From NCBI GenBank assembly GCA_964006375.1, contig OZ023262.1, positions 199,106,778-199,170,777 on the forward strand: a DNA stretch of 64,000 nt. Direction: 5' to 3'. This document shows positions 47,324 through 56,828 of the stretch, one piece after another. Below the pieces are notes generated by a model. That model did not search any database. It had not been told where the DNA came from and worked only from the letters and a program-made list of their open reading frames with translations. Positions within the stretch are counted from its first letter, which is position 1, and the number at the start of each line of letters is the position of its first letter. Source of the stretch: Tillus elongatus (lineage: Eukaryota; Arthropoda; Insecta; Coleoptera; Cleridae). The position numbers and the translations under genes are program-made.

Positions 47324-47329
47324 CAAATT
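47324..47329 (+). other. Target-site duplication (left), CAAATT
   Basis: CAAATT immediately precedes the AGTAGATAGT terminus and is repeated exactly after the right terminus at 56823-56828. Six base pairs is the duplication length characteristic of Polinton integration. Confidence 0.9.
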
Positions 47330-47900
47330 AGTAGATAGTCAGGCACCTGGGCTCACCCCCTCCACTTTTTTTCTGCGCATGCGCGTGACGTCATGCGCAT
47401 GCGCTGACCTGTGACAGTTGACAGCTGACCTGTCAGTTTTGACAGGTGTCAATGTCACCTGACCTGACAGCTGTCAACGTCAGTTGTCACCTGACCTGAC
47501 AGGTGTCAATGTCAGTTGTCACCTGACCTGACAGTGTTGACAGATGTCAAATGTCACCTAACCTGTCATATGTCACATCTGTCACAAGCGTTCCAAGATG
47601 GCTGACCTGTAATAGACAGCTGCAACCCCTGGTTCTCTATGAAACTGACCTGAGATGACGTCACAAGCGTTCCAAGATGTCTGACCTGTGTCCATAGATA
47701 TCTACAAGTCAGGTTAGGTATTAACTGTCTTATGTCTGACCTGTGATGACGTCACAAGCGTTCCAAGATGTCTGACCTGTGTCCATGGATATCTACAAGT
47801 CAGGTCTCCATGTGTGTTTGTCGAATACCAGCTGTCTGATTGTTTATTGAGGTTATGTTCACACACGTGTTGATTACCATTCATCTGTTTGTTTATTAAG
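47330..47900 (+). repeat. Left terminal inverted repeat of the Polinton-like element
   Basis: It matches the reverse complement of roughly 56250-56822. From the tip inward it holds a C-rich CCCCCTCCAC block, GCGCATGCGC palindromes flanking TGACGTCA, and a run of TGACAGGTGTCAA/ACCTGACAG motifs. Two direct copies of a 55-60-bp block follow (about 47657-47715 and 47748-47806), each containing TGACGTCAC and AAGCGTTCCAAGATG, and then repeats of TTTATTAAGGTTATG. The arms differ by small indels and substitutions, so they are similar but not identical. Less regular inverted homology continues inward: the tRNA-like site and the iterons up to about 49465 have partners in the right arm. Confidence 0.85.
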
Positions 47901-48394
47901 GTTATGTTTGTATTTGTTATGTCGTCAACGTGCTATCTGTTTGTTTATTAAGGTTATGTATGTATTTGTTTATTAAGGTTATGTATGTATTTGTTTATTA
48001 AGGTTATGTTCGCACACGTGTTGATTACCAATCATCTGTTTGTTTATTAAGGTTATGTTTGTATTTGTTTATTAAGGACAGCTGTCTGTTGTTTATTGTG
48101 TTGTTAAGGTGTATTGAAGTTTGTTAGGGTATTTCGTTTTTGGCGGGAAATTTGAATTTGTTTGAAAATTTGTGTCTGTTGTGTCCAGAGATCTAACTCA
48201 TCGAGCTAGAGAATATTCTATTTGTAAAGTTGTAGAGTGGGAGAATATTCCCTAGCTCGAGGGGAGACATCTGTTGGACACAGTCATTCGGTTTAGCACA
48301 CACACATACATATATTAGGAAGATATATTGAGCGGGTAATTTGAAATTTAATTTTAATTTGAAATATTATTTTTGAAAGAAAAGCATTCGCCTG

Positions 48395-48482
48395 AAATTA
48401 GATTTGAATTAGATTCGAACCCCAACCATACAGCTTACTAAGATATGCAAACGCCCCTAAACCGATTATGCTAGCCAGACAC
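48395..48482 (-). other. tRNA-like A/B-box site in the left arm, facing outward
   Basis: Read on the minus strand, it has an A-box-like TAGCATAATCGG and, about 50 nt on, a near-perfect B box GGTTCGAATCT. A weak six-pair stem (GTTTGC/GTAAGC) lies between them where an anticodon stem would be. A TTTT run follows about 30 nt after the B box (48381-48384), as for a Pol III terminator. The right arm has a partner at 55937-56029. Pol III activity is inference. It could also be a captured SINE head. Confidence 0.5.
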
Positions 48483-48653
48483 ACGGTGAAAGTTTGTTCG
48501 CAGTGGTATATATAAAACAAAACCTGTTACATATGATAATTTAAAAACGAGTTTATCAGGCTGATGAGTGTGTGTGTGTGTGGGCAGGGGAGGTATCTCT
48601 ATTACATTCCAATTTGAATATATAATAGGTACGGTAATTTTTTAAAAACAATA

Positions 48654-48766
48654 GTATATATATATATATATATATATATATATATATATATATATATATA
48701 TATATATATATATATATATATATATATATATATATATATATATATATATATATATATATATATATT
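48654..48766. repeat. (TA)n microsatellite inside the Polinton-like element
   Basis: About 110 bp of near-perfect TA repeats in the left non-coding arm, followed by a short direct duplication, TTTTATAGTAAAAGATA (about 48764-48799). The corresponding place in the right arm has no such tract, so it probably expanded after insertion. Confidence 0.9.
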
Positions 48767-49125
48767 TTATAGTAAAAGATATTTTATAGTAAAAGATATT
48801 TAAAGACGTTCCAATTTACATATCTAATAAAAAATTCTAAAAACAAAAACGTTTGAAGCAAACTATCAATAACAAAACGTATTTACATGTAGATATGTTA
48901 ATGAATTTGTTTAATGGGGGTAATAAAACTGGAGACCTGGTTTTATGTATGCGTGTTTGTTTATGTTAGTGTTTTATATCACAGTGAATCTGAATTTATA
49001 TAGGGAGTGATCAAAAAAAACACAAGTAACAAAACTCGATTTAAAACATCAAACTAAACTTTGATATACGAGGATTGTTTGATAAGTATTGTTTGTATGC
49101 AAACATAAATAATATAATAGTATAC

Positions 49126-49465
49126 TTACATACAGCAAGAGACGTCATACATGTTTCACGGCTTAACACACACTGACGTCTGTTGAGGTCTTGAATGGGG
49201 GTCGTTATAGAAATAACACAGTTGTTTAATGACATCCACTTGAACCAAACAAAACATATAGACGCTGTTGTTGATTGTTAACACACACACACACACACGT
49301 CATGACAGCTCGAAGTCTTTGCTTAGACTGACAGAGCTGTGTAATAAAAGACAGACAGACAATTGATTGCCCAACAAGTATCATATAGAACCTTGTTTGA
49401 GCTTGTACAGCTGTTTAACAAACACGTCATGACAGCTCGAAGGCTTTGCTTAGACTGACAGACAG
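49126..49465. repeat. Subterminal iterons, left arm
   Basis: One block near 49126-49172 (core CAAGAGACGTCAT ... GTTTCACGGCTTAACACA) is the inverse of two direct copies in the right arm (55722-55770 and 56197-56245). A second block, CACGTCATGACAGCTCGAAG followed by TTTGCTTAGACTGACAGA, occurs twice here (about 49299-49335 and 49424-49460) and once inverted near 56060-56095. Repeats placed like this could be origin or packaging sites, but no function is shown by the sequence. Confidence 0.6.
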
Positions 49466-55303: not shown

Positions 55304-55395
55304 TTTGAAACAGATTTGGGTAGAGTAAACTGAAGCAAGTCTTTTCTCAACAACAACTGAATTATGAATATGTTTAAGAGTGTCTGTGTGTAGCC

Positions 55396-55403
55396 TATTT
55401 ATA
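55396..55403 (-). promoter_or_regulatory. TATA box of the KilA-N gene
   Basis: TATAAATA on the minus strand, followed by GGCTACACACAG, 93 nt upstream of the ATG at 55303. Spacing matches the capsid gene. Confidence 0.5.
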
Positions 55404-55721
55404 CATATTACCCACAGTAACCGTTTTAAACTGTATTTGTTTTTTACATGGATGATGTCATACTTCTAACGACTGTATTCTAGACAAGCTCAAACACGTA
55501 TAATGGAATGATTCAACAGATATAACACAAGGTCATCAACTGACACGTTGTTTACCTTTAAGAGGGCCTCTCTCTTGCGTATATTAAACAGATACACAGA
55601 CAAGCTCAAACAGGATCAAGGTTAACAACTGTAAAACGTTGTTTATCCTTTTGTAAGGCCTCTCTCTCTCTCTCTTACATCAGTTTGTTTCCTCAATACA
55701 AGAGAGACACTTGTTCAGTAA

Positions 55722-56245
55722 GTGTTAAGCCGTGAAACAAGGATGACGTCTCTTGCTGTATGTAAGTACACTCTTCTTATTATGTCTGTTTGTATTCAAA
55801 TAACAAATACAAACATAACCTTACTAAACAATCAGATGATTGGTAATCAACATGTATACGAACACCTAACCTCATATGTAAACAACAACTGGCTTTTGTT
55901 TTATATATACAACTGCGAACAAACTTTTAACGTGTGCGTCTGTGGAGCTATTGGTTTAGCAATAGTATATCTGAGAAAGCTGTCTATGGCCGATTCGAGG
56001 TTCGTGGGTTCAAATCTAATTTCAGGCGAATGCTTTTCTTTCAAATACACATGCATCTGTCAGTCTAAGCAAAGACTTTGAACTGTCATGACGTGTGTTA
56101 TATCCTTTCAAACAGCATGTATAAGCTTCAACAATGGCAATCAGTTGTCTGTCTGTCTGTTTCCTCAACACAGGAGACATTTGTTCAGTAGTGTGTGTGT
56201 TAAGCTGTGAAACAAGGATGACGTCTCTTGTTGTATGTAAGTACA
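55722..56245. repeat. Subterminal iterons, right arm
   Basis: Two direct copies of a block containing TTAAGC(C/T)GTGAAACAAGGA and TGACGTCTCTTG (about 55722-55770 and 56197-56245) are inverted relative to the copy at 49126-49172. Between them lies GACTTTGAACTGTCATGACG (about 56079-56098), the inverse of the two blocks at about 49299-49335 and 49424-49460. Confidence 0.6.
55937..56029 (+). other. tRNA-like A/B-box site in the right arm, facing outward
   Basis: Inverted, diverged partner of 48395-48482. The A-box-like TGGAGCTATTGG is followed about 50 nt later by a B box GGGTTCAAATCT (56006-56017) and then TTTT at 56033-56036. In both arms the predicted transcript runs toward the element tip. 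The A box is weaker here than on the left. Confidence 0.45.
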
Positions 56246-56249
56246 CTCT

Positions 56250-56822
56250 TATTAACATGTCTGTTTGCATTCAAATAACAAATACAAACATAACCTTAAC
56301 AAACAATCAGACAGCTGGTATTCGACAAACACACACACACATGGAGACCTGACTTGTAGATATCTATGGACAGAGGTCAGACATCTTGGAACGCTTGTGA
56401 CGTCATCACAGGTCAGACATAAGACAGTTAATACCTAACCTGACTTGTAGATATCTATGGACACAGGTCAGACATCTTGGAACGCTTGTGACGTCATCTC
56501 AGGTCAGTTTCATAGAGAACCAGGGGTTGCAGCTGTCTATTACAGGTCAGCCATCTTGGAATGCTTGTGACAGATGTGACATATGACAGGTTAGGTGACA
56601 TTTGACATCTGGCAACACTGACAGGTCAGGTGACAGCTGACATTGACACCTGTCAGGTCAGGTGACAACTGACGTTGACAGCTGTCAGGTCAGGTGACAT
56701 TGACACCTGTCAAAACTGACAGGTCAGCTGTCACCTGTTACAGGTCAGCGCATGCGCATGACGTCATCGCGCATGCGCAGAAAAAAGTGGAGGGGATGGT
56801 CCCAGGTGGTCCACTATCTACT
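56250..56822 (-). repeat. Right terminal inverted repeat of the Polinton-like element
   Basis: Inverted partner of 47330-47900. It shows the same order read from the tip: AGTAGATAGT, the CCCCTCCAC block, the GCGCATGCGC / TGACGTCA cluster (56742-56780), ACCTGTCA/TGACAGGT iterations, and two copies of the block with TGACGTCA and CATCTTGGAACGCTTG (about 56345-56404 and 56436-56496). The outer boundary is fixed by the CAAATT duplication at 56823-56828. Confidence 0.85.
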
Positions 56823-56828
56823 CAAATT
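56823..56828 (+). other. Target-site duplication (right), CAAATT
   Basis: Exact copy of 47324-47329, directly abutting the ACTATCTACT terminus. Together they fix both element ends to the base. Confidence 0.9.

Follow-up and report, generated by a model that had tools for sequence, protein, structure and literature searches.

Polintons/Mavericks (Eupolintoviridae) are thought to be integrating viruses; they are usually 15-20 kb long and flanked by 6-bp target-site duplications. Like the element described here, they combine such duplications with long terminal inverted repeats, a double-jelly-roll (DJR) major capsid protein (MCP), a penton protein and an A32-type ATPase. In contrast, the present element measures 9.5 kb, and neither PolB, nor an rve integrase, nor a protease was found in its scanned open frames. 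Its virion module is also shared with the adintoviruses and other meldviruses. Adintoviruses as defined in the available text of PMC11071296 differ in carrying both PolB and integrase. The same text describes some genomes with adenovirus-class virion proteins in which PolB and integrase are not recognisable, and states that such genomes had been seen in its authors' earlier paper too; the element resembles this subset in likewise lacking both. Meld19810, from a figure legend in that text, differs in that it has a primase-helicase and a tyrosine recombinase; no counterpart of either was recognised in the element.

According to the accessible excerpts of PMC11071308, pPolB and rve integrase are missing from most Polinton-like viruses (PLVs), which have different replication proteins. 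The element shares with them the polinton-type capsid module and the missing pPolB and rve integrase, whereas none of the replication proteins described there was recognised in it. The virophages (mavirus, Sputnik) likewise have small capsid-coding genomes that rely on another virus, as the element would on the reading given below, and the mavirus penton is the best match to the predicted penton model. Their helper, however, is a giant virus, for which the element has no demonstrated counterpart, and mavirus has its own pPolB (PMC11071308) and integrase (PMC10328495), as stated in the available parts of these papers. A search of open-licence papers found none on non-autonomous or defective Polintons/Mavericks and, among the matches listed, no mention of DUF8207 or PF21738; the accessible portions of that literature contained no description of the element's gene set or of its octamer array.

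The element lies in a 64,000-nucleotide stretch of DNA from the beetle Tillus elongatus, the whole of which was analysed and is called the window. It is real, and it is Polinton-like in its ends and virion genes. It spans 47330-56822 (9,493 bp), begins with AGTAGATAGT and ends with ACTATCTACT. Its features, in window coordinates, are as follows:

47324..47329, no strand: left target-site duplication, CAAATT (direct reading)
47330..47860, plus strand: left terminal inverted repeat, about 530 bp, holding GTCA- and CAGCTGTC-containing repeats
47861..49580, no strand: left non-coding region with 25-bp and 49-bp tandem repeats and (TA)55
49581..50786, minus strand: DJR MCP, 401 aa (Pfam and predicted fold)
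50909..51730, minus strand: penton-like minor capsid protein, ORF of 273 aa (Pfam and predicted fold)
51777..52472, plus strand: A32-type genome-packaging ATPase, 231 aa (Pox_A32 match)
52496..52944, no strand: array of 35 copies of the 13-bp CAGCTGTCTAACA, between the ATPase and DUF8207-like genes
52984..53283, plus strand: DUF8207-like protein, N-terminal piece (frame 1 of 2; homologs align up to 53247)
53231..54193, plus strand: DUF8207-like protein, C-terminal piece in the other frame (a stop-to-stop stretch, not a coding start)
54368..55303, minus strand: KilA-N + DUF3627 protein, 311 aa (Pfam PF04383 and PF12299)
55311..56295, no strand: right non-coding region; some of its segments repeat those of the left region in the opposite orientation
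56296..56822, minus strand: right terminal inverted repeat
56823..56828, no strand: right target-site duplication, CAAATT (direct reading)

The two CAAATT copies confirm the 6-bp duplication claimed in a first-pass annotation of this DNA, and the inverted repeats, for which at least 500 bp had been given, measure about 530 bp. Both features are those of Polintons/Mavericks. The repeats contain an ungapped core of 436 nt with 98% identity; end to end, 23 of the 538 aligned letter pairs are mismatched, with 7/39 mismatches in columns 1-40 and 10/483 in columns 41-530. The description of the element as base-perfect thus holds for the duplications and for the outermost 10 bp of the repeats, which are identical, but not for the repeats as a whole. 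No second copy of the element was found in the rest of the window (blastn, E<=1e-3).

Near its terminus, each inverted repeat has a palindrome (47375-47404 and 56748-56778) in which two copies of GCGCATGCGC flank TGACGTCA. As judged from its letters, this palindrome would be able to form a strong hairpin. Hairpin ends occur in other DNA viruses, and the palindrome is reminiscent of such ends. When the outermost 151 nt of the left repeat were folded as single-stranded DNA, a z-score of -6.9 was obtained and 0/200 shuffles folded as well; this is due in part to the paired GCGCATGCGC copies.

The DJR major capsid and penton genes of a Polinton/Maverick, and equally the DJR capsid module of a PLV, are recognised in the element by profile and predicted fold. 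Both capsid candidates of the first-pass annotation, for which a jelly-roll check had been proposed, are predicted to be jelly-roll capsid proteins by the two approaches. The conserved start of the penton is probably residue 38 of the 273-aa ORF. Only 46 bp separate the penton gene from the gene for the A32/FtsK-type packaging ATPase, which matches Pfam Pox_A32 with an E-value of 8.1e-9 (35.8 bits; cut-off 22.8) and contains GPSGCGKT and VFIFDD, which we take to be its Walker motifs. On the far side of the array, the KilA-N protein (PF04383, E 1.2e-22; PF12299, E 1e-16) is a probable DNA-binding regulator, as judged from these domains. The ATPase, KilA-N and two capsid-type frames had been called intact, and all four are indeed open (231, 311, 401 and 273 aa, respectively).

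An additional gene at 52984-54193 had been overlooked, however, and it is out of frame. For the frame 53231-54193, 65 homologs were found, and 65/65 carry the precomputed label PF26634 (DUF8207). All 65 match the C-terminal piece, with alignments starting at 53276 or beyond, and 38/65 also match the N-terminal piece in the other frame, ending by 53247 (tblastn against the window, E<=1e-3). Each relative is predicted as one protein, so that the gene is frameshifted here, between 53247 and 53276. As the sequence around it is of low complexity, the shift may be a sequencing error; it may also be a true mutation or reflect programmed frameshifting. A spliced gene was considered and rejected: the first GT past 53247 is at 53300, beyond the earliest C-terminal homology at 53276, which makes an intron unlikely. 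The family name DUF8207 derives from the precomputed label, since hmmscan gave no PF26634 match for the two frames of the window or for the homologs P0153, P0155 and P0194; the homology of the pieces is established apart from it, by homolog search and tblastn. With ATPase, KilA-N and DUF8207-like genes present beside the capsid genes, the term capsid-only should be dropped, and likewise the term intact. The argument that intact genes make simple decay unlikely is weakened by a conserved gene out of frame, unless this is a sequencing error.

The reported lack of polymerase and integrase agrees with the profile scans. In the scanned open frames of the element (sets of 7, 5 and 10, several of which overlap or repeat), no polymerase, integrase or protease gave a Pfam match above the cut-off. 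Accordingly, neither the protein-primed PolB nor the retrovirus-type integrase of Polintons/Mavericks was found in the unspliced frames scanned with Pfam, nor was the PolB with OTU-like domain plus chromodomain integrase by which the available text of PMC11071296 defines adintoviruses, nor any replacement replication protein of the PLV kind. PolB genes are about 3 kb or more. The longest unassigned stretch, 47861-49580, holds no open frame above 78 aa; ten frames of at least 50 aa lie in or overlap it, of which five were scanned with no Pfam match above the cut-off, and four of the five others are (TA)n translations. When six proteins were compared with PHROGs, none matched a polymerase or integrase at E<=1. 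Two weak matches are not significant: that of the 167-aa C-terminal ORF to an Erf-like annealing protein (E 0.02) and that of the ATPase to a DnaB-like helicase (E 0.16).

How such negatives are to be read can be gauged from insect Mavericks, whose CDD E-values, as given in the accessible text of PMC5803895, are 2e-14 and 6e-17 for POLB and 4e-12 and 6e-16 for INT, whereas their proteases score poorly against domain models (E 0.58 and 6.1). In view of these scores, PolB and integrase can be taken as firmly absent where unspliced genes are concerned, while the lack of a protease is less certain. Pfam is weak for the adenain-type family, which gave no match in the scanned frames, and even the candidate in the penton relative P0122 stays below the cut-off: its N-terminal stretch is weakly like adenain-type proteases (14.6 bits against a cut-off of 21.3; highest-scoring adenovirus protease from the PDB, E 0.46). 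As P0122 starts with this stretch, a protease that was not found in the element may exist in its kin. An alignment also suggested that the 37-aa extension ahead of the penton might be a protease remnant. This was rejected, as 547/2000 shuffles and 87/155 other stretches of the element scored equally well against the protease-like part of P0122. Finally, the element may have a replication protein of an unfamiliar kind, the DUF8207-like and KilA-N proteins included, or a spliced replication gene.

The 13-bp array has its octamer CAGCTGTC in common with both terminal repeats. On both strands together, the array has 31 copies of this octamer, the two terminal repeats have 5 and 6, the left non-coding part has two and the remainder of the element has none; of the 54.5 kb outside the element, the left 47 kb contain 0 and the right 7 kb contain 1. 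The two terminal repeats contain 9 and 10 array 8-mers, where shuffles average 0.53 and 0.52; these counts were reached by 0/2000 and 1/2000 shuffles, and 202 other 530-bp windows contain at most 2. The terminal repeats are internally repetitive, so that their octamer sites are not independent. As a guess, array and terminal repeats could be binding sites for the KilA-N protein of the element. CAGCTG is a host E-box too.

Segments of the left non-coding region recur inverted at the right end. Two subterminal segments, 48372-48522 and 55894-56045, form an inverted pair with 77% identity, each with a B-box-like GGTTCRAATC. The idea that they are tRNA-like or VA-like RNA genes was abandoned, as ARAGORN finds none in the window; with Rfam, the element shows no tRNA at E<=1, and no match in the window reaches its gathering score. 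The microRNA matches from Rfam, of which almost all fall in the 13-bp array, score below gathering thresholds and were judged to be chance.

The MCP has 156 homologs at E<=1e-3. Among the 120 listed, 17 have an organism name, and all of these are insects (beetles, ants, a bee and a wasp). A quick tree was made from the window MCP and 119 of the 120 listed homologs, leaving out P0033, a fused model. In this tree, the window MCP falls inside a set of 30 (SH-aLRT 99), the four named members of which are all beetles (two Sitophilus, Exocentrus and Harmonia), while the named ants, bee and wasp lie outside; its exact place is unsure, as its branch is long (0.75). On these sequence comparisons, the MCP appears to be of an insect lineage and is probably beetle-associated. 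Scans of IMG/VR with the MCP (alone and aligned), the aligned penton, the ATPase, the KilA-N protein and the aligned DUF8207-like protein gave no confirmed relative, nor did a scan of the genome contig collection with the aligned MCP; holding viral-metagenome and prokaryote contigs, these collections say little on insects.

Whether the genes occur together in kin was approached through homologs on exactly equal-sized contigs (102/120 listed MCPs, 31/32 pentons and 64/65 DUF8207 homologs; the MCPs left out are the 17 named ones, on contigs of at least 43 kb, and one without a contig). Penton and DUF8207 coincide three times, against 0.37 expected by jitter, a count reached in 0.7% of 5000 trials. 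MCP and penton coincide twice (0.52 expected; 10% of trials), MCP and DUF8207 once (1.02 expected). The contig sizes hint that the penton and DUF8207 genes may be linked in kin, and are suggestive for this pair only.

The retroelement field that had been noted around the element agrees with the flanks, where 4/10 frames have reverse-transcriptase matches (PF00078), two of them above the Pfam cut-off. Reverse-transcriptase-like fragments lie at 37451-39253, 44525-45187 and 61923-62411. Similar open frames (GPILIK, DKFVSQEN) occur near long (TA)n runs at about 5000-5479, 27411-28282 and 58966-59424; they probably belong to a dispersed repeat carrying a microsatellite.

Taken together, the element is probably a non-autonomous endogenous member of the Polinton/Maverick kind that was mobilised in trans. 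The 6-bp duplication fits an integrase of the Polinton/adintovirus type. As PolB and integrase are lacking, it would be simplest to assume that a full Polinton or adintovirus recognised the ends and mobilised the element. The element retains a virion module (major capsid, penton, packaging ATPase and DUF8207-like protein) plus the KilA-N regulator, and no gene for protein-primed replication, integration or a maturation protease was recognised in it. Polymerase and integrase would have come from such a virus present in the same cell, whose enzymes would have recognised the ends and inserted the element with a 6-bp duplication, and its own capsid genes may have packaged it. Full Mavericks or adintoviruses are known from insects, as documented in the available text of the respective papers: in Spodoptera (PMC5803895), in association with Drosophila (PMC8363768) and in Colorado potato beetle contigs (PMC12567637). 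Because two defining Polinton genes were not found, the element is filed as Polinton-like, and we infer its dependence on a helper.

This preferred reading comes in two versions. A tentative possibility is that the element is a stranded copy of a larger Polinton: an internal deletion would have removed PolB, integrase and protease, a helper would have mobilised the copy, and it would now be in decay. The frameshifted DUF8207-like gene, the 10/483 mismatches outside the outermost 40 columns of the terminal repeats and the possible protease ahead of the penton in a relative, where a gap of 46 bp to the ATPase is all that is seen here, argue for it. However, no remnant of the missing genes was recovered, the 37-aa extension being no better than shuffles and controls; four other genes are open, and the frameshift could be an error. 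Somewhat more doubtful is a satellite lineage, that is, a lasting family with its own capsid and borrowed polymerase and integrase. The clean layout with no recognised relics, the four open virion and regulator genes and the penton-DUF8207 linkage hint are consistent with it, but the window holds no second copy, the conserved DUF8207-like gene is frameshifted and the coincidences involving the MCP are weak or at chance. Linkage by itself would moreover not prove kin without PolB.

A replicator independent of any helper virus is quite improbable. Host enzymes would then copy the element from an origin, formed by the 13-bp array and the terminal repeats and bound by the KilA-N or DUF8207-like protein, as the concentration of the octamer and the excess of array 8-mers in the repeats might suggest. 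No known initiator, helicase or polymerase was recognised, though, the octamer sites are subject to the reservations made above, and the insertion would go unexplained. A bolder extension, which we consider unlikely, is that an animal element shed its genes for replication, integration and perhaps maturation, kept its own capsid, and uses the octamer in the repeats and the 35-copy array to mark its DNA for replication by helper or host.

With no recognised gene for copying or insertion and one gene out of frame, the element probably needed a related virus in order to spread. If so, a Polinton parasite with its own capsid would add an extra layer of virus-on-virus dependence in animals, and an octamer-marked element that keeps its capsid would be an animal counterpart of capsid-coding satellites. 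Should it be no more than a deletion derivative, it still presents a DJR/penton/ATPase/DUF8207/KilA-N set between clean ends with no recognised replication genes, and thus a bounded example of which copies can be sought.
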